Shown: positions 6,215 through 34,877 of the stretch, piece by piece
Layout of the letters: the number at the start of each line of letters is the position of its first letter
Numbering within the stretch: the stretch's first letter is position 1
NCBI GenBank assembly: GCA_024760545.1
Contig: CP060501.1
Span: forward strand, 744,001 to 808,000
Direction of reading: 5' to 3'
DNA from: Nitrospira sp.
GTDB lineage: Bacteria > Nitrospirota > Nitrospiria > Nitrospirales > Nitrospiraceae
Length of the DNA stretch: 64,000 nucleotides
Notes under the pieces: model-generated
Told to the model about the DNA's origin: nothing
What the model saw: the letters and a program-made list of their open reading frames with translations, nothing else
Databases searched by the model: none
Program-made: the position numbers and the translations under genes

Positions 6215-6238
6215 TCGCGATCACAAACACCGTCGCAC

Positions 6239-10269: not shown

Positions 10270-10281
10270 GCGAGACAACGC

Positions 10282-12438
10282 TTATCTCAGCGAATCCATG
10301 ATGTCGAAGGTAACTTGAGTCACTTCAACAAGTTCATGCCAGGGAATCGGCGAGCATTCGCCACGGCGAATCGCGCTCACGAATGCGTCGACGCATGAGG
10401 TATTTCCTTTGTCTTGACTCCAGAGATCCATTTTTCGAAAACCGGACCACCCATAGCCGCGAAGCTTTCGGAAATTATCCAATTGCAGCACTTTACCTGC
10501 GCAAAACACTTCCAATCGCTCTTTGGGGAACGATTTATGCCCATTCCCGAAATAGTGTATGGTTCCAATTGATCCATCTCTGAACTCTAAAGTGACAGTA
10601 ACGTTGTCTTCTCTGGCAGGAGCTCCTGACGATTTGCCCATTAGCATAGCCTGGACCGCAATAATCGGTGAACCTGCCAGAAAACGAAGAAGATCCACAA
10701 AATGACACCCTTCACCGATAATCCGCCCCCCTCCGATCATTCGATCCTGAGTCCAGTGTTCATCGGAAATGTGGCCGGCATTGACCGTCATGACAAACGT
10801 CTTGGGCTCCGTAATTCCGACAACCAACTCTTTCACCCGTCGAACCTGCGGAGCAAAACGACGATTGAACCCAACCATCAAGAGTGGTGGAGAATCCCGC
10901 TTCTCGATGCATTCCTCATAGAGATCAGCGACCGCTTTCAGCTCTTCCCTGGTGATGGCCAACGGCTTTTCAACAAACACATGTTTGCCAGCTTTCAGAG
11001 CTTCAGCGGTAAGCGTTGCATGACTGTCATGCCGGGTTGCGATTATGACGGTGTTGATATCGGATGATTCGATCACATTCTTACTGTCGCTCGTGATCTC
11101 CGAAAAGCCGAACTTGCGCCCTGCGTGGGCGGCAGTCACACCAGTGCTACTGGCAACAACCTTAAAAATGATCCCGGCGCGTTTAAACGCCGGCAGAAGC
11201 ACTTGCGTCGCATAGTTACCGGCACCAATACAGCCCATGACCGGTGAGGTGGCTGGATGACCCACCTCGATTGACTCCTCCGAACACCTTATCGTCCTGC
11301 TCAGCAATCTCTTATGGGCAAAGACATCTGGTTTCGGATATTGCAAGACAATTCCGAGTGACGGGACTCGGCTGGAAATAATGTCATAGGCGGTTGTAGC
11401 CTGCTCAAACGGAATACGATGCGATATGAGCAAGTCTGTCTGGAGACGGCCGTCTGCCAACATATCGAGAACCGCCTCAAAATTACGTTGCTCCGTCCAT
11501 CGGACGAAGCCAAGGGGATAATCGTGGCCGTGATCCTCGTATGAGCTATCGTAGCGTCCCGGCCCATAGGAGCAGGATACCTGGAACGTCAATTCCTTTT
11601 CATAGAAGTCGGCACGGGAAAGTTCTAACCCCGTCACACCGACGAGCACGATCCGTCCGCGCTTCCGGCACATGTGCGCTGCTTGATGAACAGGCTCGTT
11701 ACTCTTCGTAGACGCAGTGATGATGACTGCATCCACACCTCGGCCGCGGGAGAAGGCCATGGCTGCCCCCACGGGATCGGGGTTCTGACTGAGATCAACC
11801 GTTTCCGCTCCAAGTTTCTGCGCGAGTGCGATTTTACTTCCGTCATAGTCTAACCCCAGGACCCGACACCCATGAGACCTCAACAGTTGAACCGCCATCA
11901 ATCCGATCAATCCAAGTCCAGTAACCACGACAGCCTCGCCCAGGCTGGGCTGAATGAGGCGGATCCCCTGCAACCCAATCGCACCGATCACGGTGAACGA
12001 AGCAGCATCGTCGCTCACGGAGTCCGGAACTCTCGCACAGAGGTTTTTCGGGACACAGACAATTTCCGCATGCTTGCCATTCGACGCCACTCTGTCTCCA
12101 ACTGAAAAGCCGGTCACTCCCTGCCCGATCTCAAGCACCATCCCCACGTTGCAATACCCCATCGGGAGCGGTTGATCCAGCTTATTCCGGACCGCCTCGA
12201 GCGTGGGCAGCACTCCGTCTGTCTTGACCTTATCCAATACCATTCGAACCTTTTCCGGTTGCTGGCGAGCTTTTTCGAACACATTTGCCTTACCGAATTC
12301 GACCAGCATGCGCTCCGTTCCCACCGAAACAAGCGAGTGAGTCGTCCTGATCAGCAGGTGGTTCTCTCTGACCTTCGGGCTCGGAATATCGGCGAGACTG
12401 GTTTCACCCGATGAAAGATTCTGCAATATTTGTTTCAT
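10282..12438 (-). CDS. Bi-domain oxidoreductase: zinc-type dehydrogenase fused to Gfo/Idh/MocA dehydrogenase
   Basis: 718 residues. Residues 1-350 are a medium-chain alcohol-dehydrogenase-like domain (LPMGYCNVGMVLEIGQG, VVVTGLGLIGLMAVQLLRSHG, IVLVGVTGLEL). Residues 370-718 are a Gfo/Idh/MocA Rossmann domain (MGCIGAGNYATQVLLPAFK, VFVEKPLAI with the conserved EKP, MIGGGRIIGEGCHFVDLLRF). Such fusions are annotated as bi-domain-containing oxidoreductases in polysaccharide clusters and are thought to modify a nucleotide-activated or polymer-linked sugar. The stop lies 12 bases before the heparinase start, and the upstream PaaK-like gene ends on the base next to this ATG. Tight packing supports one operon. 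The substrate is unknown. Confidence 0.88.
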   Translation of the reverse strand: MKQILQNLSSGETSLADIPSPKVRENHLLIRTTHSLVSVGTERMLVEFGKANVFEKARQQPEKVRMVLDKVKTDGVLPTLEAVRNKLDQPLPMGYCNVGMVLEIGQGVTGFSVGDRVASNGKHAEIVCVPKNLCARVPDSVSDDAASFTVIGAIGLQGIRLIQPSLGEAVVVTGLGLIGLMAVQLLRSHGCRVLGLDYDGSKIALAQKLGAETVDLSQNPDPVGAAMAFSRGRGVDAVIITASTKSNEPVHQAAHMCRKRGRIVLVGVTGLELSRADFYEKELTFQVSCSYGPGRYDSSYEDHGHDYPLGFVRWTEQRNFEAVLDMLADGRLQTDLLISHRIPFEQATTAYDIISSRVPSLGIVLQYPKPDVFAHKRLLSRTIRCSEESIEVGHPATSPVMGCIGAGNYATQVLLPAFKRAGIIFKVVASSTGVTAAHAGRKFGFSEITSDSKNVIESSDINTVIIATRHDSHATLTAEALKAGKHVFVEKPLAITREELKAVADLYEECIEKRDSPPLLMVGFNRRFAPQVRRVKELVVGITEPKTFVMTVNAGHISDEHWTQDRMIGGGRIIGEGCHFVDLLRFLAGSPIIAVQAMLMGKSSGAPAREDNVTVTLEFRDGSIGTIHYFGNGHKSFPKERLEVFCAGKVLQLDNFRKLRGYGWSGFRKMDLWSQDKGNTSCVDAFVSAIRRGECSPIPWHELVEVTQVTFDIMDSLR

Positions 12439-19889: not shown

Positions 19890-21668
19890 TCAAAAACTTC
19901 GCGGAACAGCGAAGGTTCCTGCGCTATCTGCCGAAGACAGCCGAAGGATGTGATGCGCAATTGCAGAACGCACTTCTCCCAGATTCGAGGGAAGATCTCC
20001 TCGCAAGTCTTCCAAATATTGGAGAGCCTCGAGGGCAGAAGGGGTGTATGGTTTAGGAAGCGCTTCGAGGATATCTTCCAAGGTTGTCACGTAGCGAACA
20101 TCGTCAATTCCTTCTCGAAATCCTTCCCACGCCAACGTATCAATCACACCGTCAACGGTCGGATATGTGAAGTTGTGGTCGCGATAACGGACATGATCGA
20201 AATCATTCCAGATGAATCCCATCGAATCCTGATAGGCATATGGCATGGCCCCATCATAGTCGTTTCTCCACAGTTCAAGCCCGTAATTGCGCCTGAATAT
20301 CTCTGGGTTTTCCGGCCCAGTCTGCGGATTCGCGTACGAGAAGATCTTGTGACCTGCACGATGAAAATTCTCCGCCTGCGATTTCTGCAGCTTACCCGCC
20401 ATCACAAGCAGGTCCAGCAGATCCCCAACCACTGGAAAGGCTTCTGCATATCCTGCAGTAAACACTTTGACTCCTTCATTCCTGGCCATTTGCCACGCTT
20501 TCCTTTGAGCGATAAGCTTTTCCCCTTTGGCTTCATCGATGCCATACAGATAGAGTTTCTCGATTCTCTGCTCACCGGCTATTTCTTTGATGACCTTCAA
20601 CCGACGTCTCAGCTCAGCGAGTTGCTCGTGGGTCTGAGGATTTCCCGTACCCGTACCAAGATAAAACAGGGTTGCGGAATCCATGCCGGCTTGTTTTCTG
20701 ACTTCCAATGTCTTGTTCAGCTCTGCCTTGTTCAAACGATGATACACGGTCGGATTCGTGACGCCGTGCGCAAACATATCGTTCAACTCGGCGGCAAATT
20801 GTGCTGAGTCTTTTCGTTCCGAGGAGATGCTTGGTGTATCCGAAAGGGTTCCGCGATAGTAGATACTGTATTGTATTTTGGGGAGATGAAGATCGATAGG
20901 AAGTACTTGAAGGATGAATTCCAAGCTGCCCAACGAACCTTGGTCATCAGTAAGAGTGATGCCCCCCTTATAGTTTCCTCCTTTGGCATCGGGCGGAATG
21001 TGAATCGTGATCCAGAGCTGCTTCGCTTCACCACGATGAATGCTTACTGGCTGAACATCAGCGGTGTCGTGAATTGGGAATTCGGCAACTGAAGCAACAA
21101 TCCGGCTTCTTAAGGCAGCTGGCTCGCTGATTGACACAAGCCTAGTCCTTGACGAGTACTTCAACCTGAGAAAATTGGTCTTCGACTCCTCGTTTGCCTG
21201 AACCAAGCCGTCATCTTTTAGTAGAAGCTCCGGCACCAAAACTTTGGTCCTCCCCATATGAGACAAACCGATGGTATTCCACCCTCCTCCCGCCTGAAAC
21301 CATACCTTCACGAACCGAAGATCAATGTGGGAACTTGAAATCATCTCGCCATCACTGACGAGATCGCTCATGGAAACCCGCAAATTGTCAATATCACGAG
21401 CCATAGGCCGAATAACGAAACTCGCAGGTTCGTATTCACCACGAGAGCCTACAATTTTTATGGTCGTAGACGGCTTTCCTGGCAGAGGAAAAGTTCTCGG
21501 GAGAATTTGTTCCCCGCTGATGGGATTCACGACATGCACGAGCAGAGGGCCCAGATTCGACGTCTCAGCATGTCCAGGCAAACTGAAGTAGAACGCTGCA
21601 CCGCCTCCCAGTAAAAGCACACCTGCTATCTGGGACAGAGCTTTGAAGACACTAGCTGAAATTTGCAC
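19890..21668 (-). CDS. Exported glycoside-hydrolase-like protein of unknown substrate
   Basis: 592 residues from the GTG at 21668, preceded by AAAGGTGG. The N-terminus has a signal peptide or anchor (ISQIAGVLLLGGG-type hydrophobic core). A beta-rich region follows (GEYEPASFVIRPMARDIDNL), resembling the carbohydrate-binding part of DUF4091-type proteins. The C-terminal half has barrel-like features and Trp/Tyr/Asp-rich stretches (LYGIDEAKGEKLIAQRKA, WRNDYDGAMPYAYQD, WEGFREGIDDVRYVTTLEDI). Related proteins are annotated only as glycoside hydrolase domain proteins. I infer a role in trimming the exported polymer. It starts just below the duplicated wecB remnant and a sigma-54-like site. Confidence 0.6.
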   Translation of the reverse strand: MQISASVFKALSQIAGVLLLGGGAAFYFSLPGHAETSNLGPLLVHVVNPISGEQILPRTFPLPGKPSTTIKIVGSRGEYEPASFVIRPMARDIDNLRVSMSDLVSDGEMISSSHIDLRFVKVWFQAGGGWNTIGLSHMGRTKVLVPELLLKDDGLVQANEESKTNFLRLKYSSRTRLVSISEPAALRSRIVASVAEFPIHDTADVQPVSIHRGEAKQLWITIHIPPDAKGGNYKGGITLTDDQGSLGSLEFILQVLPIDLHLPKIQYSIYYRGTLSDTPSISSERKDSAQFAAELNDMFAHGVTNPTVYHRLNKAELNKTLEVRKQAGMDSATLFYLGTGTGNPQTHEQLAELRRRLKVIKEIAGEQRIEKLYLYGIDEAKGEKLIAQRKAWQMARNEGVKVFTAGYAEAFPVVGDLLDLLVMAGKLQKSQAENFHRAGHKIFSYANPQTGPENPEIFRRNYGLELWRNDYDGAMPYAYQDSMGFIWNDFDHVRYRDHNFTYPTVDGVIDTLAWEGFREGIDDVRYVTTLEDILEALPKPYTPSALEALQYLEDLRGDLPSNLGEVRSAIAHHILRLSSADSAGTFAVPRSF

Positions 21669-21749
21669 GTTCCACCTTTCTGTTGCCCTTGTCACTTATA
21701 CAGTTCCATAGAAAGCAGTCGTATTCGTCGACTATTTCAGCAGCGTTTT

Positions 21750-21918
21750 GCTCGTCCATTCGTAAAAGAATGGCATCCCATTTCTCTCCCACCATTCGAG
21801 GTCAAAACAGCATACGAGTTTGCTTGGGTCAGTTCGTTCGTTCCACTGATAGCGATTCCGAGCCGATCCGTATTTCACGCAGATCGAGACAAGAGGCGCC
21901 CCGGACAGCGGTTTCCTC
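21750..21918 (-). pseudogene. Decayed C-terminal fragment of a wecB paralogue
   Basis: Translating the minus strand from 21918 gives EETAVRGASCLDLRE, which aligns with EETTVLGVPCLTLRD of the intact WecB encoded at 22224-23324. The frame ends at a stop at 21829-21831. Nucleotide similarity continues below it (AGTTTGCTTGG, TCCCATTTC) with a 10-base and a larger deletion. It is thus a frameshifted remnant of the last quarter of a second wecB gene. Confidence 0.7.
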
Positions 21919-21992
21919 CAATTTAGTTAGGAAGACTGCTGTGATGATATGAGCTGTACACGCATGTGACAAACTAAAACGGTTTTATAACA

Positions 21993-22007
21993 GCAAGAGT
22001 TGGTCCA
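21993..22007 (-). promoter_or_regulatory. Sigma-54 -24/-12 candidate in repeat R1
   Basis: The minus strand reads TGGACCAACTCTTGCT with the correct GG-N10-GC spacing. It is conserved at the same place in repeat R2 although the flanks have diverged. It could drive the glycoside-hydrolase-like gene starting at 21668, through the wecB remnant. Confidence 0.5.
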
Positions 22008-22101
22008 TACGGAGGACTCAAGATCGCGTGATGAATCAGTAGATTGGGGCAATGATCGGGAACGTAGCCCGGAGCGAATGGAGGTAGGACGATACAGATG
22101 C

Positions 22102-22115
22102 GTTCGAATTGGAAC
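22102..22115. promoter_or_regulatory. Near-palindrome upstream of R1 sigma-54 site
   Basis: GTTCGAATTGGAAC, one mismatch from the perfect palindrome in R2, is centred about 100 bases upstream of the -24 element. That is the usual place for an enhancer-binding activator. Confidence 0.45.
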
Positions 22116-22223
22116 GGACAGGGATGCGGAGCTGTTTTGCACTACGCGTCCGTATTCAATTGACGGACTATCATCAGCTCGGCGTGACTGACCAACGACA
22201 GCGCTCCAGAACATGGATGACAG

Positions 22224-23324
22224 TTACTCATCGCATAACACTCTCTCCAAACACTCGACGATCCGTTCGGCTGTCTTACCGTCCCATTTCGGTGGGATTG
22301 CCCCTTTCTTCCACTGTCCGGCCATCAATCGAGCCAGGGCCGGAGCAAGTTTGCTTGGATCGGTCCCGATCAGTTCGTTCGTCCCAATCGTGATGGTTTC
22401 AGGCCGCTCGGTGTTGTCACGGAGCGTCAGGCACGGCACCCCGAGTACCGTCGTTTCTTCGGTAATCCCGCCGGAATCGGTAATCACACCTTTGGCGTGC
22501 TTTACTAAGTAATTGAATTCCAGGTAGCCGAGCGGGTCGACATAGTGAAGTTGAGGTATCTTGTCGTCAAGATCTCGAAGACTTTTAGCGGTTCGTGGAT
22601 GGACCGGAAATACCACGGGCAATCCTTTCGTGCCTTCAACAATGGCGCGGAGGAGAGAGACCAATTGATGCTCTCCATCAACATTGGCCGGCCGATGAAG
22701 CGTGACGACAAAATACTGTCCAGGTTCGAGGTGGAGCGATTGCCAACAGGTAGGAGGTCGCAACCGCGACAAGTGCTTGAGCAGCGTGTCGATCATGGTA
22801 TTGCCGACAAAAAAGATTCGCTCATCGATCACGCCGGCACGCCGAAGATTTTCGTTGGCCGTCTCACTTGTCGTAAAAAACCAATTGGTGATGGCGTCGG
22901 TCACTACCCGGTTGATTTCTTCCGGCATCGTCCAATCGCCGGACCGAATCCCGCCTTCCACATGGGCCACCGGCACGCCAAGTTTTCGCGCCGCGATCGA
23001 GCAAGCCATGGTGGACGTCACGTCGCCGACCACGAGACAGAGGTCGCTCTTTTCCTTGAGTAGAACCTTCTCGTACGCGACCATGATACCGGCCGTTTGT
23101 TCGGCTTGAGTGCCAGAACCCACTTCTAAATTGATATCCGGTTTGGGAATTCCGAGTTCTTCGAAGAAACTGCCAGACATGGCACGATCATAATGCTGGC
23201 CTGTATGGATCAATCGATACCGCAGAGGACCACCTCGCTCCGCAGCCTCTTGTAGCGCGTCGATGATCGGCGCGATCTTCATAAAATTGGGGCGCGCTCC
23301 GGCAATGATATCGATATGCTTCAC
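22224..23324 (-). CDS. wecB: UDP-N-acetylglucosamine 2-epimerase (non-hydrolysing)
   Basis: 366 residues from a GTG at 23324, preceded by TTGAGGTG; the next residues KHIDIIAGARPNFMKIAPI are the standard WecB start. Other family marks are LIHTGQHYDRAMSGSFFEEL, VVGDVTSTMACSIAARK, VAHVEGGIRSGDWTMPEEIN with the catalytic acidic residues, VTLHRPANVD, ITDSGGITEE and LRDNTERPETI. The enzyme interconverts UDP-GlcNAc and UDP-ManNAc, supplying a sugar for the exopolysaccharide. It is flanked by the two copies of a 200-base repeat, and a degraded relative of its 3' end lies at 21750-21918. Its promoter is probably the sigma-54-like site at 23533-23547. Confidence 0.93.
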   Translation of the reverse strand: MKHIDIIAGARPNFMKIAPIIDALQEAAERGGPLRYRLIHTGQHYDRAMSGSFFEELGIPKPDINLEVGSGTQAEQTAGIMVAYEKVLLKEKSDLCLVVGDVTSTMACSIAARKLGVPVAHVEGGIRSGDWTMPEEINRVVTDAITNWFFTTSETANENLRRAGVIDERIFFVGNTMIDTLLKHLSRLRPPTCWQSLHLEPGQYFVVTLHRPANVDGEHQLVSLLRAIVEGTKGLPVVFPVHPRTAKSLRDLDDKIPQLHYVDPLGYLEFNYLVKHAKGVITDSGGITEETTVLGVPCLTLRDNTERPETITIGTNELIGTDPSKLAPALARLMAGQWKKGAIPPKWDGKTAERIVECLERVLCDE

Positions 23325-23532
23325 CCAACACCTCAACGACGCGAGTAGATCCCTCGCATCAGACTGGATCGTCGCCTACTCAAAGCATCCTTCAATGACT
23401 CGAGCTTCTGACAAGCCGCTGACCAGTGATGCGATCAAGGCGCTGCCCCGACTCATACAAATTTAGTTAGGAAGACGATTGTGATGGTATTGGGTCTAAG
23501 CGTACCTGGCAAACCAAAACCGTTTTTATGAC

Positions 23533-23547
23533 AGCAAGACTCGGTCC
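23533..23547 (-). promoter_or_regulatory. Sigma-54 -24/-12 promoter candidate for wecB
   Basis: The minus strand reads TGGACCGAGTCTTGCT, matching TGGCACGN4TTGCW except for the two bases after TGG. Spacing of the invariant GG and GC is exact. Transcription would start near 23521, leaving a leader of about 200 bases before the GTG of wecB. Confidence 0.55.
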
Positions 23548-23642
23548 ACGGATAACAATCTGAATGGTATGACGAATCAATGAATTAAGAGATTAAGATG
23601 ACAAGTCTTCCCGCATGAATGGATGAAACACCGTACAGACGC

Positions 23643-23656
23643 GTTCCAATTGGAAC
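23643..23656. promoter_or_regulatory. Perfect 14-bp palindrome, candidate activator-binding site
   Basis: GTTCCAATTGGAAC is a perfect palindrome about 100 bases upstream of the -24 box, conserved with one change in R1. It fits the position of a sigma-54 enhancer site. Confidence 0.5.
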
Positions 23657-23671
23657 GGACAGAGAGAATAT

Positions 23672-24604
23672 CTAGAAGTGCACTTCGCGGATCGATTCGC
23701 GGTTGGTTCGAAACCATTGGACGGTTTTCTTTAGCCCTTCGCGCAGGTTATGTCGCGATTGAAACCCGAAGAGCTGCTTGGCCCGGCTCACGTCAAGACA
23801 TCTCCTGGGCTGGCCGTTCGGTTTCGAGGCATCCCACAGAATCTGACCGGTAAATCCCACCTCGGAGGCAATCAACCTAGCCAGATCGCGAATGGCAACC
23901 TCTTCTCCGGTTCCCAAATTGATGGGCAGATCGCCCTGATACTCTTCCGCAGCAAGAAGAATCCCCTCGGCCGCATCCTCAACGTACAAAAACTCTCGCG
24001 TGGGCGACCCATCTCCCCAGAGGGTAATCGACGCGTGCCCTGCATCTTTTGCCGTCGCACATTTCCGTACGAGCGCCGGAATGACGTGAGAGGTCTCCAG
24101 ATCGAAGTTGTCACGCGGTCCATACAGATTGACGGGAAACAGCACGATCGAATTAAACCCATATTGTTGACGATACGCCTGCGACTGGACCAGCATCATC
24201 TTCTTTGCCAGCCCATATGGGGCATTGGTTTCTTCGGGATACCCAGTCCAGATATCATCCTCCCTGAATGGGATCGGCGCGAACTTGGGATAGGCGCAAA
24301 TCGTCCCGAGTGCGACAAACTTCTTGAGCCCCCGTTGACGGCCTACCTCGATCAGCTGCGTGCCCATCATCAGATTATCGTAAAAGAACCGTCCCGGATT
24401 GGCTTGGTTTGCGCCGATTCCGCCCACACGAGCCGCCAGATGGATCACCATATCGGGCTTCGCGTCGCTGTACAGTTGCCGTACGGCATCCATCTGCACC
24501 AGATCGTAGTCCTTGCTACGCGGGACAACGACTTGCCGACAGCCTTTCACCCGCAGCTGCTCGACGACGAACGAACCGAGAAACCCGGCACCACCCGTCA
24601 CCAC
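23672..24604 (-). CDS. fcl: GDP-L-fucose synthase
   Basis: Short-chain dehydrogenase of the extended type: [16 protein letters not shown] is the NADP-binding glycine motif, and [16 protein letters not shown] holds the catalytic Tyr-x3-Lys. [20 protein letters not shown] and [16 protein letters not shown] are typical of Fcl/WcaG. It converts GDP-4-keto-6-deoxymannose to GDP-L-fucose, directly after Gmd in the pathway and in the operon. The start is a problem. The GTG at 24604 removes conserved upstream residues (SFWEDQCV), which are encoded in frame back to the Gmd stop at 24656. No ATG, GTG or TTG is available for them; a CTG at 24643 follows a GAGGGGG. The true N-terminus is probably longer. 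Confidence 0.92.
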
Positions 24605-25820: not shown

Positions 25821-26741
25821 TTGGCCGCATTACCTCCGCAACACGCGCGTCGCGTCGGAATGTTTTTCTGTATGGTTGTGTGCGGTCTGCTCATCGCGCA
25901 CTCAATCAATGCCTTCGTTGCCGAGGCACTATATGTGATCCCCGAGCATCCGTCTGGCTCCGGCAGCGGTGGATTTCCAGGCTCTCCGTTGCTGGCATCC
26001 TATTCACCGACTCAGGCGGTGGACGATGTGCAGGCCAGCGGTCTGTTCGTACTCCCTCCAACACCTCAGAACGGACAAACGAATGCGACGAATTCTGATA
26101 GACGCGGTCTCTCCGGGACTCCGGTTCGCGCGTCCCTCGGATTGGCGGCAAGGATTCGCTTGATCGGTATCGTGTTCGGCGATCAGCGCGGCATCTTTGC
26201 AATCGTTGAGGAGCTGTCGTCCAAACAACAATCATTATATCGCCTCCATGATTCAATTCTCGATATGGGAGAAGTGAGCGAGATTCGTCGAAACGGACTC
26301 CTGGTCCGTCAAGGCAATGTCGAGGAGTTGTTGGAACTGGCGGTAACCGACAACCCGACCGCACCGGCCGGTTCTTCCGGCACGGTTCCTACTGCCGCCC
26401 AGGCACCGACACCCGGCGCTCCTCTGCGAAAAATCGTCGACCGCCGTGAAGTGGAACAAGCCATGAATGATCTGCCGAAACTCTTGTCGCAGGCCAGAGC
26501 CGCCCCATTCATGGTGAACGGGACTATAAACGGATTCCGCCTGGACTACGTCGCTCCGGCCAGCTTCTATGAAAAAATCGGGGTTCAGGCGGGGGACGTG
26601 CTGCAACGGGTCAATGGCGTCGATATCCGTGATCCCAGCACCATGTTGAGCTTACTGCAGCAACTCAAGAATGAGCAGATCGTCAAGCTCGACGTGGTTC
26701 GAAATAATCAACGCTCCACGATCACGTACGAGCTTCGCTGA
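25821..26741 (+). CDS. gspC: Type II secretion system inner-membrane protein GspC
   Basis: 306 residues from a TTG at 25821 with GAAAGG upstream. One N-terminal transmembrane segment (FFCMVVCGLLIAHSINAFVA) is followed by a proline-rich linker. The GspC homology region comes next (IRLIGIVFGDQRGIFAIVEE), and the C-terminal PDZ-like domain contains NGFRLDYVAPASFYEKIGVQ and GDVLQRVNGVDIRDPSTML. GspC links the inner-membrane platform to the outer-membrane secretin. In most operons gspD follows; here a 203-base spacer and gspE follow instead. Confidence 0.88.
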   Translation: MAALPPQHARRVGMFFCMVVCGLLIAHSINAFVAEALYVIPEHPSGSGSGGFPGSPLLASYSPTQAVDDVQASGLFVLPPTPQNGQTNATNSDRRGLSGTPVRASLGLAARIRLIGIVFGDQRGIFAIVEELSSKQQSLYRLHDSILDMGEVSEIRRNGLLVRQGNVEELLELAVTDNPTAPAGSSGTVPTAAQAPTPGAPLRKIVDRREVEQAMNDLPKLLSQARAAPFMVNGTINGFRLDYVAPASFYEKIGVQAGDVLQRVNGVDIRDPSTMLSLLQQLKNEQIVKLDVVRNNQRSTITYELR

Positions 26742-26944
26742 GACCATCGTTCCTGCTTCGTGTGTGTATTGTCCTTGACCCTCGCTCCTAACGGTTCTGG
26801 GCTACGGCCACTTTCAGCCCGCATTCTCAGTGATCGACAACTCCACAAGGCAGCGCTTAACTTTACGTTAAGAATGCACGGTGTCCTTGCCAGGCCGTTG
26901 GAAGGGAGAGTATCTTTACCAATTGAGGGAAAGGCCAGGCGAAA
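26742..26944. other. 203-bp spacer between gspC and gspE
   Basis: No gene is visible where gspD is usually found. The stretch holds a small inverted repeat (CTTAAC/GTTAAG with a five-base loop) near 26858. Confidence 0.4.
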
Positions 26945-28696
26945 TTGTCTGAAACACTGCACAACGATCAACCCAGTCCGGGCTCCGGCCGACCACGGCT
27001 GGGACGCATTCTCGAAGAAAAGTTCAATTTATTGGAGTCGAAACTCGAGGAGGCACTGGCCTATCAACAGGACAAGGGTGGCCGATTGGGAGAAGTCCTC
27101 CTGCATCTGCGCTCACTGCGGGAGGAACAACTCTTGGAAGCACTCGCGCAGCAATTTGAGATGGCCTGGATGCCTCAGCTGGATACCACTTCTGTCGACC
27201 ATGAACTGATCAAAAGAGTCCCGATCGCCTTTTGCCGGCGATACCGCGTCTTGCCGCTCCGATCTGAAGACGGGGCCATCTTGACCGCCTCGACTGACCC
27301 CCTGGAAACCGTCGCGCTGGATGACCTTCGACTGCTGCTGGGCAAACCGATTAAGCCGGTTTTGACGACGAGCGTCGTCCTCCTTGCCTGTTTAAACCGG
27401 GCCTATGACGAGATCGCCAACCCGGCCGGCGCCGAGCAAGTCATGGAAGATATCGCCGCCAGCAAGAGCCTCGACCAGCTGGCGCACGAACTTGATGAGC
27501 CGCAAGACTTGCTGGACTCGACCGATGAGGCCCCGATCATCCGGTTGGTCAACTCGGTGTTGTTTCAGGCCGTTCGGCAACGAGCGAGCGACATCCATTT
27601 CGAATCGTTCGAACGCGGACTGGTGGTCAGGTATCGCATCGACGGTGTGCTGTATCCGGTTCTTACACCACCCAAGCATTTGCAAGCCAGCATTATCGCG
27701 CGCCTGAAAATCATGGCCGGCCTCAACATCGCCGAAAAGCGCTTGCCGCAGGACGGCCGGTTCGCCATTCGCACTGCCGGGAAGGACATCGACCTCCGGG
27801 TCTCCGTGCTGCCTACCTCGCACGGCGAGCGGGTCGTCTTGCGATTACTGGAGAAGGAAAACCGCCTCTTGAACCTGTCGGAGATGGGCTTCTCGAAGGA
27901 ACGTCTCGCGGTAATTCATCAGCTGATCCAACTCGCTCACGGGATCATTCTCGTCACCGGCCCCACGGGGAGCGGCAAGACCACCACCCTGTATGCCGCC
28001 CTGAGCCACATCAATGCCCCGGACAAGAACATCATCACGGTCGAAGATCCGGTGGAATACCAGCTACTCGGCGTCGGGCAAATGCAGGTGAACCCCAAGA
28101 TCAATTTGTCGTTCGCGGCCGGACTGCGGTCCATCCTCCGGCAAGATCCTGATGTCATCATGATCGGCGAAATTCGCGACCGCGAAACGGCGGAGATCGC
28201 CATCCACGCATCGTTGACCGGACATCTGGTGTTCTCCACTCTGCATACAAACGACGCCGCGAGCGCGGCCACTCGGCTGATCGATATGGGGATCGAGCCT
28301 TTTCTGGTCGCGTCATCGGTCGTCGCCGTCCTGGCTCAACGACTGCTCAGAAAGATTTGCCCGGACTGCAAACACCCCTATACACCGAGCGAGGAAGAAT
28401 TGAGCCGGCTCGACCTTGCGCCTGGTTCAAACATCACCCTCTATCGAGGAGTCGGATGCGCCGCCTGTTCTCAGACCGGCTATCGTGGGCGCACCGGCAT
28501 CTTCGAGCTCATGGTGCTCGACGACGAAATCAGACGCCTCATCGGAAGCAAGGCTGACTCGACGGCCATCAAGCACGCGGCGATCGCCAAAGGGGTCGTG
28601 ACGCTGAAGCAAGAAGGCGCTGAACGTGTCATCCAAGGCCACACCACGATGGAGGAATTCATGAGGATCACTCAACAAGAGATTGAAGTCGACTAA
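26945..28696 (+). CDS. gspE: Type II secretion system ATPase GspE
   Basis: 583 residues from a TTG at 26945 with AAAGG upstream. The N-terminal domain is of the T2SSE_N/MshEN type (GGRLGEVLLHLRSLREEQL). The ATPase core has ASDIHFESFERGLVVRYRID, Walker A LVTGPTGSGKTTTLYA, the Asp box TVEDPVEYQL, Walker B DPDVIMIGEIRDRETAEIA and the His box HTNDAA. A zinc-binding CPDC...CAAC motif follows near residue 500. GspE powers pseudopilus assembly from the cytoplasm by docking on GspL and GspF. Confidence 0.95.
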   Translation: MSETLHNDQPSPGSGRPRLGRILEEKFNLLESKLEEALAYQQDKGGRLGEVLLHLRSLREEQLLEALAQQFEMAWMPQLDTTSVDHELIKRVPIAFCRRYRVLPLRSEDGAILTASTDPLETVALDDLRLLLGKPIKPVLTTSVVLLACLNRAYDEIANPAGAEQVMEDIAASKSLDQLAHELDEPQDLLDSTDEAPIIRLVNSVLFQAVRQRASDIHFESFERGLVVRYRIDGVLYPVLTPPKHLQASIIARLKIMAGLNIAEKRLPQDGRFAIRTAGKDIDLRVSVLPTSHGERVVLRLLEKENRLLNLSEMGFSKERLAVIHQLIQLAHGIILVTGPTGSGKTTTLYAALSHINAPDKNIITVEDPVEYQLLGVGQMQVNPKINLSFAAGLRSILRQDPDVIMIGEIRDRETAEIAIHASLTGHLVFSTLHTNDAASAATRLIDMGIEPFLVASSVVAVLAQRLLRKICPDCKHPYTPSEEELSRLDLAPGSNITLYRGVGCAACSQTGYRGRTGIFELMVLDDEIRRLIGSKADSTAIKHAAIAKGVVTLKQEGAERVIQGHTTMEEFMRITQQEIEVD

Positions 28697-28794
28697 ATGC
28701 CGCACCGAGTCTCCGACCCCCTCCCTCGGCCATTTCCAGATTGGACTGTCGGACCGCCTTCAGTGGCGTGTGACGCCTCCGGAGCCTGCTGACC

Positions 28795-30033
28795 ATGCCC
28801 GTCTATCAATACCACGGGTACCGCAACGACGGCGGGACCGCAGCCGGAATCATCGATGCGGAGAACGTCAAGGTTGCGCGGCTGAAGCTGAGAAAAGAAG
28901 GCGTCTATCCGACGGACGTCGTCGAGCAGAGCCAGTCCACGGTTCGGTCACCGGACAAACCCCGTGCCACCACCGGGCGCACGATCGGACGGTCGTCCGT
29001 CCTGACGGCCAACGACCTGTCCTTGCTGACCAGGCAGTTTGCGACGCTCTTAGTGGCCGGGCTCCCACTCGTCGACGCCCTCGGCGTGCTCGTGGATCAA
29101 GCGGAGAAGAAATCCATCAAAGCACTCCTCGCGGACATCCGCGAGCAAATTCGCGGAGGAAAAGCCTTGAGCGCGGTCCTTGAATCCTATGACAAGGATT
29201 TTTCCGCCATCTATGTCCACATGGTACGAGCCGGCGAGGCCAGCGGCGCGCTCGATCAGATTTTATTCAGGCTTGCGGAGTTTTTGGAGAAACAACTGGC
29301 CTTGAAGAACAAAGTCACCAACGCCATCCTCTATCCTGTGCTCATGCTCATCGTCGGAATGTCGGTTCTGTTTTTCTTGGTGACCTTCGTCGTCCCGAAG
29401 ATCACGGCGGTCTTTGTCAGCATGAAACAGGCGCTTCCCTGGCCGACGGTCGCCCTGATGTCGGCGAGCGGATTCCTCGCCGACTATTGGATGGTGCTGC
29501 TGACCCTGGTGGGTGCAAGCCTGTATATGACCCGGCGATTTATCCGGACCGGGCCAGGCCGAATGGTCGCAGACCGTATAATACTGAGACTCCCCTTAGT
29601 CGGAGATGTCGCGCGCATGGTATCGATTTCCAGGCTCACGAGTACGCTGGCGACGATGCTGGCGAGCGGCGTTCAATTGCTCGATGCGCTGGATGTCTCT
29701 AAACGAGTCATGAACAATCGGGTACTTGAAGCCACAGTGGAAGGGGCCCGGCAGAATATCCGCGAGGGTGAGACCATCGCGGACCCCTTGAAGCGAAGTG
29801 GAGAATTTCCCGCGCTCGTCACCCACATGATCGCCGTCGGTGAGAAAAGCGGTGAGATGGAAGAAATGTTGCGTCGTGTCAGTCAAATTTACGACGGCGA
29901 AGTCGAGCGAGTCATCACGCGGTTGACCTCGCTGATGGAACCGATCATGATTCTGGTCATGGGCGTCATAGTGTTTTTTATTGTCGTCGCGATTCTGTTG
30001 CCCATCTTTGAGATGGGTCAGATGATCCACTAA
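28795..30033 (+). CDS. gspF: Type II secretion system platform protein GspF
   Basis: 412 residues, the usual length. It has two T2SSF repeats, each with a helical cytoplasmic bundle, and three transmembrane segments near residues 180-205, 225-245 and 380-405. Typical motifs are LLTRQFATLLVAGLPLVDAL, VRAGEASGALDQILFRLAEF and GVQLLDALDVSKRVMNN followed by HMIAVGEKSGEMEEML. GspF is the inner-membrane core on which GspE acts. The ATG at 28795 lies 98 bases after gspE. Confidence 0.94.
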   Translation: MPVYQYHGYRNDGGTAAGIIDAENVKVARLKLRKEGVYPTDVVEQSQSTVRSPDKPRATTGRTIGRSSVLTANDLSLLTRQFATLLVAGLPLVDALGVLVDQAEKKSIKALLADIREQIRGGKALSAVLESYDKDFSAIYVHMVRAGEASGALDQILFRLAEFLEKQLALKNKVTNAILYPVLMLIVGMSVLFFLVTFVVPKITAVFVSMKQALPWPTVALMSASGFLADYWMVLLTLVGASLYMTRRFIRTGPGRMVADRIILRLPLVGDVARMVSISRLTSTLATMLASGVQLLDALDVSKRVMNNRVLEATVEGARQNIREGETIADPLKRSGEFPALVTHMIAVGEKSGEMEEMLRRVSQIYDGEVERVITRLTSLMEPIMILVMGVIVFFIVVAILLPIFEMGQMIH

Positions 30034-30092
30034 GATGGGCGATCTGCAACACGGTAGAGGGAGAGCTGGAACGAGACAAAGGGGGACTGACG

Positions 30093-30629
30093 ATGACTGA
30101 TTCGGCAATGCAGAGCCGGGACACCACACCTGTCGGCGAAGAAAACCGACTGCTTCGCGTATTCGTCTACCTGGCCCGGCGGACTTCAAGGAACTCCGCC
30201 GGTTTTACGTTCATTGAAATCATGGTGGTCGTGGCCATCTTGGCCATTCTTGCCGCCTTGGTGGTTCCGCGCATTATGGGCAGAACGGATGACGCCAAAC
30301 GAACCGCGGCAAAGGTGCAGATTCGAAATATCGAGGGTGCGCTCCAGCTCTACAAGTTGGATAACGGCGTCTACCCCACGACCGAACAGGGCCTCAAGGC
30401 GCTGATCGAAAAACCGTCGGTCGGGGTTGTGCCCAAGAAGTGGAAGATCGGAGGGTACCTGCCGAAACTCCCGGAAGATCCGTGGGGCAATCCCTACAAG
30501 TATCTCAGCCCGGTCCAACGGGGAGATCAAAAGATCGACTATGAAGTCACCTCCTTGGGAACAGACGGCGAAGTCGGCGGTGAAGGTGTGAACGCCGACA
30601 TCACCAATTGGAATCTGGACAAAGAATAG
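30093..30629 (+). CDS. gspG: Type II secretion major pseudopilin GspG
   Basis: 178 residues with the prepilin cleavage motif SAG/FTFIEIMVVVAILAIL, including Glu at +5, and the GspG C-terminal signature TTEQGLKALIEKP and LPEDPWGNPYKYLSP with the calcium-binding loop. The leader before the cleavage site is unusually long, 36 residues rather than the usual 6-10. The ATG at 30093 has a strong ribosome site (AAAGGGGGA), so the long leader is probably real. GspG forms the body of the pseudopilus. Confidence 0.94.
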   Translation: MTDSAMQSRDTTPVGEENRLLRVFVYLARRTSRNSAGFTFIEIMVVVAILAILAALVVPRIMGRTDDAKRTAAKVQIRNIEGALQLYKLDNGVYPTTEQGLKALIEKPSVGVVPKKWKIGGYLPKLPEDPWGNPYKYLSPVQRGDQKIDYEVTSLGTDGEVGGEGVNADITNWNLDKE

Positions 30630-30634
30630 GCTCA

Positions 30635-31303
30635 ATGCTCAGGCGCGATGCACCATCGAATCGAAAGCGGCAGGTTCGAGGACTCAGTTGCGCCTCACGC
30701 CCTACGCGTCGCCCATTACGTTCTTCCGGCGGCTTCACTCTCCTTGAAATGCTGATTGCCCTGTTTCTCCTGGCCGGAGTCGTCGTCATCGTTCTCCCTC
30801 GGATCAGTCTCGACGAAGATTTACGTTCCACTGGAAGAAAACTGGTCGGGATCCTACGAACCTTACAAGGTATGGCCATTACGAGTCAGACGCCCATCAA
30901 GCTCTACCTCGATCTGGATCAGGGGAAATACTGGATGATGACCGTGGAAGGAAAGGAAGAGCGCATCCCGCTTGATCCGGGTTGGAAAACACCCCGTACA
31001 CTCCCTGAATCGATCCGCTTTACGGAGGTCTCCATCGGACAAGACAAGCGCTTCTCCGGAAGAGTCGCGGTGACGTTTTTTACCAGCGGGCGTATTGAAC
31101 CGGTCACCATGTATCTGATGGACGGCAAGAGCAATCTCTTGGCATTGGCAGTCGATTCTTTGACCGGGGGAATTCGAGTCAGCGACGAACGACTCGATCC
31201 TCCACCCAACCGGATCATCCCCGACCGCGTAAAACTTCTATTGAAAGCCAGTGCGCAAGCCGGTGTCGGAGGGGCGCCGAGGGGGATATTACCCAATCAG
31301 TGA
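30635..31303 (+). CDS. gspH: Type II secretion minor pseudopilin GspH
   Basis: 222 residues from the ATG at 30635, six bases after the gspG stop region. The cleavage motif SSGG/FTLLEMLIALFLLAG with Glu at +5 follows a basic leader of about 30 residues. The C-terminal part (QGMAITSQTPIKLYLDLDQG, VTFFTSGRIEPVTMYLMDG) is the GspH beta domain. It joins GspI, J and K in the pseudopilus tip. The long leader mirrors that of GspG. Confidence 0.82.
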   Translation: MLRRDAPSNRKRQVRGLSCASRPTRRPLRSSGGFTLLEMLIALFLLAGVVVIVLPRISLDEDLRSTGRKLVGILRTLQGMAITSQTPIKLYLDLDQGKYWMMTVEGKEERIPLDPGWKTPRTLPESIRFTEVSIGQDKRFSGRVAVTFFTSGRIEPVTMYLMDGKSNLLALAVDSLTGGIRVSDERLDPPPNRIIPDRVKLLLKASAQAGVGGAPRGILPNQ

Positions 31304-31312
31304 CACGTCGCA

Positions 31313-31750
31313 ATGGGACGGAATGTACACCACCCCAATTTCGATGAACGCGGTTTCACGTTGCTCGAAGTGCTGCTGGCAATCGCCTTATTGGCGATCG
31401 CACTTCCGATTCTCCTCGGCCTCAGAAATTTCGACCTGGATCTTCAGGGTCGAGCGACCGAACTGACTGCCGCGACCCTCTTGGCCCAAGAGAAATTAGT
31501 GGAAACTGAACTCTCTGGACAATATTCCATAGGAGAGACTGTCGGGGATTTTCCGAACCTCCCGCTCGGAGCCCAGACCACAACCCAAGCGGTCCCCAGG
31601 GCCGTCGGTTACAAATGGAAGCGTACCATCGCGCCGACCCCGCTGGAGTTGATTCGAGAGATTCGCATCAAGGTGTTTTGGCCGCGTGGCGAGCTTGAAG
31701 AAAGTGTGGAGGTGAGTACCTATGTCTTTGCCGGGCGTCTCACCTTCTAA
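31313..31750 (+). CDS. gspI: Type II secretion minor pseudopilin GspI
   Basis: 145 residues with the cleavage motif DERG/FTLLEVLLAIALLAIALP after a 14-residue leader. The downstream QEKLVETELSG and YKWKRTIAPTPLELIREIRI stretches suit GspI, the smallest tip pseudopilin. The end overlaps the gspJ start by 29 bases. Confidence 0.85.
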   Translation: MGRNVHHPNFDERGFTLLEVLLAIALLAIALPILLGLRNFDLDLQGRATELTAATLLAQEKLVETELSGQYSIGETVGDFPNLPLGAQTTTQAVPRAVGYKWKRTIAPTPLELIREIRIKVFWPRGELEESVEVSTYVFAGRLTF

Positions 31751-32375
31751 ACAGCAAAGTGGTTTTACGCTTGTCGAGGTCTTGGTTGCCATTGCCCTGC
31801 TGGGCCTCATTGGCGCCATGGTCTTTGGATCACTCATCACGACAACGCGAACCATCGATGCCGGAAGAGATCATGCGGCAAGGGAAGAAACCGTCAGAAA
31901 GCTGTTGCGCCTTATGGCAGAGGAAATCTCACTCAGTAAGCGCAATCTCGCATACCCGTGGGTCGGGATGAACGGGACATGGGAAGGGTATCCGGCCGAT
32001 ACACTCGCGTTCCTCGCGATGAGTCAGGAGTTGAGTACCTCAACCGCCAAAGAGACCGATCCCACAAATATGATGAGCAAGGAGAGCGAAACCGTTCGAG
32101 TCGTGTACACGCGGGAACGCGACCGGCTGATCCGCTTCGTCCGCAAAAACGTCTACACATTGACCGACACCAACGAATCGTTGGATCAGATGGAGTTGGC
32201 GGATCGTGTGCAAGCCTTCAACGTCCGGTACTACGACGACCAGAACAGGCTCTGGCTCGATGAATGGCCGACGGCCAGCAAAATGCCCAAGGCCGTACTG
32301 CTTGAAGTAACGTTTCAGGATCCCGATACCGAGCCTTGGACGGTGCGGGAATGGGTGGCGATCGGAACACCATGA
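31722..32375 (+). CDS. gspJ: Type II secretion minor pseudopilin GspJ
   Basis: 217 residues with the cleavage motif QQSG/FTLVEVLVAIALLGLIGA after a 14-residue leader. MAEEISLSKRNL and the C-terminal domain (VVYTRERDRLIRFVRKNVYT, FNVRYYDDQNRLWLDEWP) fit GspJ. It overlaps gspI upstream and shares an ATGA-type stop/start with gspN. Confidence 0.85.
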   Translation: MSLPGVSPSKQQSGFTLVEVLVAIALLGLIGAMVFGSLITTTRTIDAGRDHAAREETVRKLLRLMAEEISLSKRNLAYPWVGMNGTWEGYPADTLAFLAMSQELSTSTAKETDPTNMMSKESETVRVVYTRERDRLIRFVRKNVYTLTDTNESLDQMELADRVQAFNVRYYDDQNRLWLDEWPTASKMPKAVLLEVTFQDPDTEPWTVREWVAIGTP

Positions 32376-33256
32376 CCTTTAAATGGACTGACGCATGGAG
32401 AGAGATCCTGGCGTGGACCGTGGGCGGAGTCTGCATCTTGGCTGTGTGCGTGATGGCCACCTTTCCGTATGGAATGCTCCAGGCCAGGTTGGTTGCGGAG
32501 CTCAAGCGAGCCACCGGTATGGATGTCCGAGTGGCCGATTGGACCCTGGGATTGCCGCTGAGCCTGGAATGGAGGAACGTCACTCTATCGAAGCAGAACT
32601 TGGCTCCCTTCCAGATGGCCGTTCTGCAAGCCAAGCTCGGAATCATGAAGGCCTTGAGCGGCGCGCTCGGACTCGACCTAGTCGTGCAGTTGGATGAGAA
32701 CTCATCGCATACCAGTCTTGCCAAGGGCACGCTCACGGCCTCGTCGTTTTCGTTCTCCGGCCCCGTCACGGCAAAGGGTCAGTTTCAGCAGGTGGATCTC
32801 TCCAAAGTCGTCCGCCGCTATGTCACTCACGGCACGCTCAACGGAGATTTCTCTCATCGGGTCGACTCCGGCTTGGGAGCCGGAACCAGGATGAAGGGCG
32901 AAGGGACATGGACCGCGGACGCAACGGACCTGGTCATCGACCAGATTCCACTCGGCAACGGCCGAACCTTGTCGCTGACGTTCAGCAAAGTCTCGGCAGG
33001 GCTGGCGTGCCGGGACCTCCTCTGCGAAGTCACCCAGTTGAAGGGCGAGGGAATCGACGGCTCGTTCTCGGGCGAAGGGAACATCACCCTTCAGCAGCCG
33101 ATGCCGAACAGCCAATTGCACCTCACGGTGACGGTAATCCCAGGCCCCGGCTTTGTGGCGAAAGCCGGGACACTCGGCCTCCCCTCACCGCCTCCTGGAA
33201 CCCCCATGACCGTGAAGATCGTCGGAACCTTGGCACAGGCGAGGATTGCATTGTAA
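32372..33256 (+). CDS. gspN: Type II secretion protein GspN
   Basis: 294 residues from the ATG at 32372, which overlaps the gspJ stop by four bases. One N-terminal transmembrane segment (WTVGGVCILAVCVMATFPYG) is followed by a long periplasmic beta-rich domain with AsmA-like character (LPLSLEWRNVTLSKQNL, GTLNGDFSHRVDSGLGAG). GspN is an accessory, non-universal component of type II systems. Its position between J and L, and the length, support the call, though overall similarity to classical GspN is limited. Confidence 0.72.
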   Translation: MTFKWTDAWREILAWTVGGVCILAVCVMATFPYGMLQARLVAELKRATGMDVRVADWTLGLPLSLEWRNVTLSKQNLAPFQMAVLQAKLGIMKALSGALGLDLVVQLDENSSHTSLAKGTLTASSFSFSGPVTAKGQFQQVDLSKVVRRYVTHGTLNGDFSHRVDSGLGAGTRMKGEGTWTADATDLVIDQIPLGNGRTLSLTFSKVSAGLACRDLLCEVTQLKGEGIDGSFSGEGNITLQQPMPNSQLHLTVTVIPGPGFVAKAGTLGLPSPPPGTPMTVKIVGTLAQARIAL

Positions 33257-33293
33257 AGTAGGATCCTTGTAGGACTATTCATCCGAGACTGTT

Positions 33294-34877
33294 ATGTCAA
33301 TCGTGAACGAATGTGTGGGGCTGGATATCGGGCAAACGGGCTTGAAAGCCGTCCGTTTCCGCCGCCGTCTGAGCGGACGCGAAACCGTCGACTACTTTCA
33401 ACACCCCATGCCGTTTTCCCGTCCGGAAGATCTTGAACCGGCTCGACGCGTGCAGTCGCTGCGGGGATTCCTCTGGAAGAATGGACTCTATGCCACAGAT
33501 CGATTGGTCACCGCGATTCCCTGCCAGGACCTCTTCGTCAGAACGCTCTCGTTTCCCTTCAAGGATTCAGCCAAGCTAGCCCAAGTCGTGCCCTTTGAAG
33601 TCGAGAATCTTGTGCCCATGCCGCTCGAAGATCTCGCGGTCGGAAGCCTGGTCTTACCGCCTGGACAGCTGGTTGAAGGGGCTTCCCGCGAGTCCAAGGG
33701 CTCGGAGGTTCTGGTCACGGCAGCGCCAAGAGACAAGGTCGACGAGCATCTCAAGTTTTTGGCCCAAGCCGATGTGGAACCGTCGGCAATCAATGTCGAT
33801 GCCATGGCGCTCTTTTCCGTCACTCAATTTCTGCAGGAAGAAGGAGCCGCCGTCCCGCAAGATTTGGCCATCATCGACGTCGGAGCTTCGAAAACCACCC
33901 TCTGTCTGGTGCAGGGGGGACGTCCCGTCATGCTCCGGACGATTCTCTGGGGCGGTAACCATGTGACGCACGCCCTGGCTGTCCGGCACGCCTGCAGCTT
34001 CGCCGACGCGGAACGTCACAAGCGCACGATGGCCGTGGATCAAGTACACGGCATGTTGGAGCCTATCCTGAGAGAGCTTCGGATCACATTACAGGGCTAT
34101 CAAGGAAACGACCGTAGTCGCTTGACTCACTGCTGGGTATGCGGAGGAGGGTCGAAGCTCCAGGACATCGGAGGTTACATCTCTCGTCAATTAGGACTCT
34201 ATCCGGTAGGGCCGCGCCAAGGATTTGGCGCCGATACTCCGAGAGCATTTTCCATCGCATTCGGTTTGGCCATTCACCCGAAAATCATCCGACCCCGCTG
34301 GCGGTTCAAATCGTCTCCGCTAGGGCTCGCGCTTGATCTGAAAGGGGTCTCGGAAGCGGGTTCACCGGACTCCGCCATGACCAAACGAGACCGCCGGTTG
34401 GCGACGGCCGCCGGCTTGGTGATCGCCGTCTTTGCTCTCGTGGATTTCTCGATTCACTTCATGCTGCAGGATCAACGAGTGACCAGGCTGAAAACCGCCC
34501 TGCACAGCCAATATGAGCAACTCTTCGGACCAGGCGCCGCCTCCGGAGAAGAACTTGATCAAGCACAATACCGACTCGGAGTCCTCGACAAGTCACTCGG
34601 CCTTGTCGATGCTACGAACGGGAAGGCCTTGCTCACGCTCTCGACATTCGTGAAACAACTGCCGCCGGGAACGATGGTCAAGGTCCGCGAGCTGACCGTC
34701 GATGGCGCGGTTATTATCCTGGAGGGAGAGGCCACGTCTTTTGACGCGGTGGAACGCATCAAACAAACCTTCATATCGAGCCCGCGGCTGACGGACGTGT
34801 CGGTGACGGAAACGCGAGTGGGCGCGACTTCCAATCAAGTTGTGTTTCGCATGACGGTGACGGTGCAGCAACCATGA
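33294..34877 (+). CDS. gspL: Type II secretion protein GspL (PilM-like actin-fold plus PilN-like domain)
   Basis: 527 residues. Residues 1-350 are an actin/PilM-like ATPase fold (CVGLDIGQTGLKAVRFRR, ALFSVTQFLQ, LAIIDVGASKTTLCLVQGG, HCWVCGGGSKLQDIGGYI). A transmembrane segment near residues 367-388 (AGLVIAVFALVDFSIHFML) is followed by a coiled-coil and ferredoxin-like periplasmic part. GspL recruits GspE to the membrane and pairs with GspM. PilM-like proteins of type IV pili share the fold, but the fused membrane/periplasmic half and the following GspM favour GspL. Confidence 0.85.
   Translation: MSIVNECVGLDIGQTGLKAVRFRRRLSGRETVDYFQHPMPFSRPEDLEPARRVQSLRGFLWKNGLYATDRLVTAIPCQDLFVRTLSFPFKDSAKLAQVVPFEVENLVPMPLEDLAVGSLVLPPGQLVEGASRESKGSEVLVTAAPRDKVDEHLKFLAQADVEPSAINVDAMALFSVTQFLQEEGAAVPQDLAIIDVGASKTTLCLVQGGRPVMLRTILWGGNHVTHALAVRHACSFADAERHKRTMAVDQVHGMLEPILRELRITLQGYQGNDRSRLTHCWVCGGGSKLQDIGGYISRQLGLYPVGPRQGFGADTPRAFSIAFGLAIHPKIIRPRWRFKSSPLGLALDLKGVSEAGSPDSAMTKRDRRLATAAGLVIAVFALVDFSIHFMLQDQRVTRLKTALHSQYEQLFGPGAASGEELDQAQYRLGVLDKSLGLVDATNGKALLTLSTFVKQLPPGTMVKVRELTVDGAVIILEGEATSFDAVERIKQTFISSPRLTDVSVTETRVGATSNQVVFRMTVTVQQP

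Follow-up and report, generated by a model that had tools for sequence, protein, structure and literature searches.

The window is the whole stretch of DNA that was analysed, 64,000 nucleotides of Nitrospira sp. (contig CP060501.1, positions 744,001 to 808,000). Its minus strand carries, in order, gmd, fcl, promoter module copy A, wecB, promoter module copy B, a wecB relic and a GH123-like gene. Beyond the GH123-like gene the same strand continues with Wzx/Wzy-like and further polysaccharide genes. The labels Wzx and Wzy are our assumption from knowledge of these families (the Wzy-like ORF has no Pfam match), and the name fcl for 23672..24604 is likewise taken over from the initial annotation and family knowledge. 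NCBIfam named one of the ten proteins submitted to it (TIGR00305). A type II secretion-like cluster adjoins gmd in divergent orientation at 25821-36353, and GspC-like genes lie beside the polysaccharide locus in many of the compared loci. The features are as follows.

23672..24604, minus strand: fcl (GDP-fucose synthase type; Pfam PF01370/PF16363), its 3' end bordering copy A
23460..23689, minus strand: putative promoter module copy A, between fcl and wecB (pairwise alignment; model search)
23642..23657, no strand assigned: palindrome CGTTCCAATTGGAACG, exact in copy A (pattern search)
23534..23548, minus strand: -24/-12-like sequence of copy A, TGGACCGAGTCTTGC (from the sequence)
23484..23512, minus strand: sigma-70-like site of copy A, TTGCCA, 17 bases, TACCAT (genus alignment, scanner)
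22224..23336, minus strand: wecB (UDP-GlcNAc 2-epimerase; Pfam PF02350, E 2e-100)
21920..22148, minus strand: putative promoter module copy B, 3' of wecB (pairwise alignment; model search)
22101..22116, no strand assigned: palindrome of copy B, one mismatch (pattern search)
21993..22007, minus strand: -24/-12-like sequence of copy B, TGGACCAACTCTTGC (from the sequence)
21944..21972, minus strand: sigma-70-like site of copy B, TTGTCA, 17 bases, TATCAT (genus alignment, scanner)
21768..21918, minus strand: wecB relic, codons 293-348, not in one frame (nhmmer E 5e-10)
19890..21695, minus strand: GH123-like gene, the first gene past copy B and the relic (Pfam PF22680, E 1.9e-10)

The likely start of wecB is the GTG at 23324, judging by comparison with relatives. 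Codons are numbered from the TTG at 23336.

The initial annotation proposed a tandem duplication of the fcl end, the promoter and wecB, with later loss of most of one wecB. The repeat of about 200 bases upstream of wecB on which it built aligns at 69% identity over 208 columns (E 2e-18, in a small pairwise search space). The alignment of the two stretches is significant and in its extended form pairs 23689-23460 with 22148-21920 on the minus strand. Similarity was also said to reach into the 3' end of fcl. This is right for the last 18 bases of the gene, which ends at 23672, and for nothing further. A profile of 34 fcl 3' ends has no match upstream of copy B at E<=1; it no longer detects the fcl part of this copy. 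A model search recovers copy A at 23460-23588 (E 4.2e-28) and copy B (E 5.7e-26), with a model partly built from these same copies. A third copy was sought and only two were found in the genome; one search adds two chance matches of 16-18 bases. Copy B does run into a wecB C-terminal relic. A DNA profile from 38 intact wecB 3' ends matches codons 293.0-348 at 21918-21768, and pairwise tblastn gives a weak match (E 0.009). Loss of most of the second wecB is supported as well, codons 293-348 being what remains in the window.

The best support for the tandem duplication comes from the relative G053, where a second unit is complete and in order. It has an fcl 3' end, matched by the same profile upstream of the module (E 1.6e-12), then the module and then a wecB relic from codon 290 (E 3e-33). 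Copies of the module lie on one or both sides of wecB in many of the examined loci. This means the duplication seems older than the compared species, unless it was spread by exchange. Since the window relic lies on the far side of B, it does not correspond to the displaced native end described below for other genomes; the best reading is that it is what is left of the duplicated wecB.

G065 is a genome of the same species as the window. Its locus (L028, 9133-9640 of the reversed locus) has fcl, then a wecB 3' relic and the module, and a search of the genome yielded no intact wecB of this type. Its gmd and fcl proteins are 99% and 95% identical to those of the window, as if the polysaccharide block had been exchanged.

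What kind of promoter the module might be can be judged from its relatives. With the 221-base module as query it is found in 13 of the 79 genomes of the genus, and a model from 14 copies finds 38 places in 29 of the 79. We aligned 36 copies by nhmmer from the loci of the 39 compared genomes (alignment A1, without L018 and L009, in which the module is broken at contig ends). The near-invariant columns are TTG..A (35/36 rows) and TA..AT (35/35 rows), at a model spacing of 17 bases and preceded by a run of A. Hexamers of the -35 and -10 type, 16-18 bases apart as in sigma-70 promoters, are present in the same fractions of rows. Because the copies were gathered for their likeness to A and B, conserved columns are favoured in general, though not these hexamers specifically. 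TTG and TA..AT are kept in all 19 rows outside the seed set, of which 18 come from genomes without a seed and the last is a second copy in seed genome G052. A scanner run over 21600-23800 reports two sigma-70-like sites only, one per copy, with 10 and 9 of 12 matches. Shuffled sequence gives 1.5 such sites on average, so the scanner alone proves nothing. Both sites (23512-23484 and 21972-21944) had been overlooked in the initial annotation. We read the module as a putative sigma-70 promoter with a conserved upstream part, and we infer its activity from sequence. Like sigma-70 housekeeping promoters, the module has TTGYCA-17-TAYCAT. Unlike them, its site sits in a longer conserved stretch of about 130 bases. 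A YTGATTCRTC block in the upstream part (23571-23580 and 22030-22039 of the window) is kept in several genomes, as judged by eye. An RNA element was considered and rejected, as RNAalifold gives 0 pairs and 21500-24000 has no Rfam match at E<=1.

The other way to read the module is the one first proposed, a sigma-54 promoter with the palindrome as its upstream activator site, duplicated together with wecB. One can see why it was proposed. In either window copy a TGGACC-N5-CTTGC-like sequence occupies the equivalent position, 108 bases away from the palindrome (TGGACCGAGTCTTGC at 23548-23534 and TGGACCAACTCTTGC at 22007-21993), and the genome has one rpoN match. There is a precedent too, in the sigma-54 motif that PMC1569441 describes upstream of PEP-CTERM genes in exopolysaccharide producers. 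However, GG and GC 10 bases apart are a feature of the window copies that is not conserved across the genus. Both are present in 12 of the 27 rows that cover them, compared to sigma-70 hexamers in all but one of 36. Column conservation is 0.81 and 0.78 for GG and 0.78 and 0.85 for GC, and several neighbouring columns do as well (0.81, 0.81, 0.89). The palindrome is degenerate in other genomes (by eye). The claim that the -24/-12 site and the palindrome survived best has to be given up, since the near-invariant columns are the sigma-70 hexamers instead. We consider a sigma-54 promoter improbable. With up to 3 mismatches the palindrome has 4 matches in the window against 0.38 expected. A genome-wide palindrome regulon was rejected: at up to 2 mismatches there are 4 places in the window's own genome, two here and two elsewhere.

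It is plausible that copy B was recruited by the GH123-like gene. Copy B also precedes a GH123-like gene and other polysaccharide genes in several species, so a recruitment does not look recent. In G052 two contig ends (L025 and L024, contigs C37 and C52) cut through module B. By eye the two end in a common reverse-complementary sequence, as would be seen if an insertion sequence separated the -24-like from the -12-like part.

The wider comparison covers the window and 42 loci from 38 other Nitrospira genomes (39 in total), chosen for module or wecB matches. L032 (G008) was left out because its match is only 26 bases. We find that the 3' end of wecB is an insertion hot spot in Nitrospira. A tblastn search with the whole gene returns 38 long matches and, off contig edges, 42 shorter pieces, of which one relic may yield two or three, and every piece is from codon 289 or later. 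The DNA profile finds 45 wecB stretches, none starting before codon 288, in 22 of the 39 genomes, the window included. G021 is a weak member of the 22, and two contig-edge stretches in G068 are not counted as fragments. The control count of non-edge fragments is 40 for wecB, 3 for fcl, 1 for gmd, 0 for GspC and 3 for GspE, the last all in one locus. Breakpoints fall at codons 288-305, with some later, so they are clustered yet variable; fragments from codon 316 or beyond blur the breakpoint zone. The gene is also a mosaic between species. In a set of 80 loci from named genomes that carry close wecB relatives, short 3' fragments are present in 5 of the 12 titled Nitrospira and in 0 of the 68 others, with flanks of up to 8 kb and many short contigs. 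Four of these 68 have a second long wecB-like gene. A literature search of titles and abstract openings returned no report of wecB 3' fragments, which is no proof of absence.

Two further observations concern these fragments. One locus (L089 of G023, 5955-11711) has two intact wecB genes with wecB fragments in between. In L078 (G059) and L074 (G078), CCAGACAGACCAGAA-type low-complexity repeats lie directly before fragments from about codon 319-333. In oriented-locus coordinates these fragments are near 7633, 8867 and 9211.

It is worth asking what sits in the slot behind wecB. We surveyed 195 ORFs from 26 loci, many of which are surely chance ORFs. The commonest Pfam families are DUF2442 (8), DUF4160 (6), PIN (5), methyltransferase (4) and DUF433 (3). 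Rarer among the matches listed are DUF5615, PemK and DUF2283 (2 each) and ParE, DUF6883 and DUF4926 (1 each). DUF4258 is also found between wecB fragments, beside DUF2283. Neighbouring small genes pair DUF433 with DUF5615, DUF4160 with DUF2442 and DUF2283 with DUF4258, as toxin-antitoxin genes do. We take the first and last of these pairs to be toxin-antitoxin systems. The table of putative toxin-antitoxin systems in PMC8198452 includes DUF4160/DUF2442 under the name dhiTA, from Dickeya dadantii. The slot of G017 holds four wecB fragments with DUF2442, DUF433 and DUF5615, PIN and ParE genes. Some slots hold other genes, and G078 has an IS-type rve domain there. By hand count, this few-kilobase slot accounts for at least 20 of the genus's 210 DUF2442 genes, spread over 17 genomes.

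The end of wecB that adjoins promoter B is informative. The spacing from codon 367 to B is 152-192 bases where the neighbour is an intact gene (eight cases) and 165-198 bases where it is a relic (seven cases). The junction between a wecB end and B is found both with and without an intact gene in front. In seven genomes a relic wecB end is attached to B, and six of these retain an intact wecB. An eighth relic before B, in G077, is seen by the DNA profile only. By eye, codon 366 is Val in 7 of the 8 intact ends and all 7 relic ends that adjoin B, compared to 2 of the 30 other intact wecB genes. It is Leu in the intact wecB of the six genomes that have a relic before B. The sequences behind the stop codon agree with these allele types, again by eye. 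Based on the alleles and the sequences behind the stop, the native wecB end seems to have stayed with promoter B and the intact gene to have taken another end. This is the pattern of a displaced native end and a gene completed by another 3' end, in seven genomes. Polysaccharide genes lie at very different distances behind wecB: the same genes start at 727 bases in G021 vs 4,879 in G031, and those shared by G006 and G033 start at 1,180 vs 4,015 bases.

The trees give weaker signal. A tree of codons 306-367 with all rows has 7 label changes, compared to 10.2 in shuffles, and 1 shuffle in 500 is as low; its rows are related by descent and the B-neighbouring ends are not one group. Among intact genes only there are 5 changes on the 3' tree vs 7 on the gene-body tree. 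Rows shorter than 140 bases and three oddly gapped fragments (G067, G068a, G059) were excluded and one row is unlabelled. The 3' tree is too short for a clean split of native and cassette ends. On these results it is chiefly the last codons that show the exchange of ends. The array genomes G015, G034 and G023 have no relic directly before B.

The pattern is not confined to wecB. We examined 80 of the 210 DUF2442 loci, outside the slot and hand-picked among the places listed, so not a random sample. Direct repeats straddle DUF2442 in 20 of the 80; at control points within these loci the count is 26 of 307. The other 60 of the 80 have no flanking repeat. Taking ORFs of 120 codons or more, 11 of the 27 straddling pairs (10 loci) have their end no further than 12 bases from the stop codon, as have 2 of the 25 other repeat pairs. 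In these 10 of the 80 loci the repeat consists of the final 78-257 bases of the gene preceding the cassette, copied beyond the cassette. The inserted pieces between repeats are 0.4-1.1 kb in 10 of 12 and longer in 2 of 12. A conserved motif was sought at the cassette ends and none was found.

In 4 of these 10 loci, from different species, the host gene is DsbA-like, an identity that we presume from its CGFC motif. A fragment lies behind this gene in 4 of 30 loci. In three of the four occupied loci, those of G013, G015 and G005, sequence past the fragment is similar to what directly follows the gene where no fragment is present, as expected if the native end was displaced; one of these matches is short. 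One of the four fails this test. Also against displacement, the DNA behind the gene in occupied loci matches G052 or G064 over 264-391 bases, and there are short matches of 32-60 bases to G000, G004, G053 and G065, all of them loci that yielded no fragment. G064 has a DUF2442 gene at its DsbA-like locus, so it may carry a cassette without a repeat. DUF433 genes are straddled in 10 of 26 cases, 2 of them at the stop codon, compared to 9 of 52 controls with shorter flanks. In other genera of the phylum DUF2442 is straddled in 2 of 19 cases, none at a stop codon, compared to 0 of 38 controls; these are small numbers with shorter flanks. Seven contig-edge loci (four DUF433, three DUF2442) and eight loci from within the genus are excluded from this set.

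We argue that an old duplication and recombination-driven insertion of cassettes at the wecB 3' end together account for the locus, and we hold this with moderate confidence as a whole explanation. An old tandem duplication of fcl 3' end, sigma-70-type promoter and wecB put promoter copies on both sides of wecB. Copy A would drive wecB. Copy B would have outlived its own wecB and become a promoter for strain-variable polysaccharide genes. Small cassettes, many with toxin-antitoxin-type genes, would enter behind the wecB stop codon. The 3' end carried by the cassette would complete wecB and the native 3' end would be left as a fragment. Repeated insertion would build arrays in which wecB is followed by toxin-antitoxin genes, a wecB fragment, more toxin-antitoxin genes and another fragment. 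One can imagine a circular or circularised piece, a gene 3' end with its toxin-antitoxin genes, that joins the chromosomal gene by single-crossover homologous recombination. Such a piece would not need its own recombinase, and a second single-crossover event would make an array. Since breakpoints vary, no phage- or integron-type integrase is seen among the families listed for the slot and wecB is a mosaic, we think homologous recombination the likeliest route. We give it somewhat more weight than site-specific integration.

Site-specific integration would have a tyrosine or serine recombinase that we do not see place non-autonomous toxin-antitoxin cassettes at a core sequence in the 3' part of the gene. 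Islands integrate in this manner at the 3' ends of tRNA genes. All the fragments are 3' ends and they form tandem arrays. In addition, the window, the DUF2442 type (G001, G006, G014, G015 and G017) and G065 have differing upstream sequences that all join wecB at codon 293, give or take about 2 bases. These upstream sequences are unrelated by eye, though those of the window and G065 may share some bases. The window relic starts at codon 293 in common with cassette fragments, which suggests the same breakpoint from few independent cases. A site-specific system would explain the joins near codon 293 better. However, breakpoints fall at several codons (288-305 and later), the cassette ends show no shared motif and several different host genes are involved. 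Among the Pfam families listed for the slot there is no phage or integron integrase, with one IS-type rve domain only. TIGR02249, the integron integrase, is above cut-off in 8 of the 79 genomes; the array carriers G017, G078, G015 and G059 are not among these, and G068, a fragment carrier, is. Wherever such a genome has a wecB match the integrase is on another contig. With none adjoining the slot, we reject the integron integrase as the cause. We regard site-specific integration in general as unlikely. Several Nitrospira genomes contain short C-terminal integron integrase pieces; in two places (G055 C3 and G018 C6) a DUF2442 gene lies no more than 3 kb away.

A simpler scenario is plain tandem duplication with decay, in which locus exchange would have left the other fragments of the genus, unconnected with the duplication. 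It explains the window and G053 fully, and a wecB that is mosaic between species fits it too. Even so, no fragment starts in the first 287 codons, toxin-antitoxin-type genes lie between many fragments and the same pattern is seen behind other genes. This makes plain duplication a poor candidate for the whole. That wecB fragments and copy B are assembly errors we consider very unlikely: many of the genomes are MAGs, but the window genome has two contigs, fragment carriers G017, G001 and G064 have 8, one and one, A and B differ (69% identity) and similar layouts are present in several species.

Cassette insertion by homologous recombination may reach beyond this locus. We tentatively suggest, with more reserve than for wecB itself, that Nitrospira has minimal mobile cassettes. 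Each would be a toxin-antitoxin pair with the end of a host gene, recombinase-free, that keeps the host gene intact and at wecB forms integron-like arrays. If this is true, toxin-antitoxin genes can spread through the genome without harm to the genes in front of them. It would also help account for the variability of the polysaccharide locus in an environmentally important nitrifier. For the window itself, the sigma-54 reading is replaced by what looks like an ordinary promoter long kept on both sides of wecB. The literature search of titles and abstract openings gave no toxin-antitoxin cassettes with host-gene 3' repeats, which again is no proof of absence.

Three known systems invite comparison. 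Chromosomal integron arrays are rich in toxin-antitoxin pairs. PMC3856429 describes them as small genes between repeats, altered by insertion, deletion and rearrangement. The wecB slot also has small genes separated by repeats. Unlike integron arrays, it has a resident gene's 3' end as its repeat in place of a known attC site; the arrays are short and no integron integrase adjoins them. Elements that integrate at 3' ends complete the host gene with their own 3' end and can accrete in tandem. For islands and mobilizable elements of this sort, PMC5704250 describes an attB located at the end of a gene and direct repeats on both sides of the element. The Nitrospira cassettes likewise lie at a gene end between direct repeats, but the pieces are mostly 0.4-1.1 kb, they are behind several host genes and no such recombinase is seen. 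With DhiTA (DUF4160/DUF2442) the likeness is in content, since the commonest cassette families here are these two. The cassettes here are putative toxin-antitoxin genes by sequence, and their association with host-gene 3' ends is a trait absent from the table and the start of the abstract of PMC8198452.
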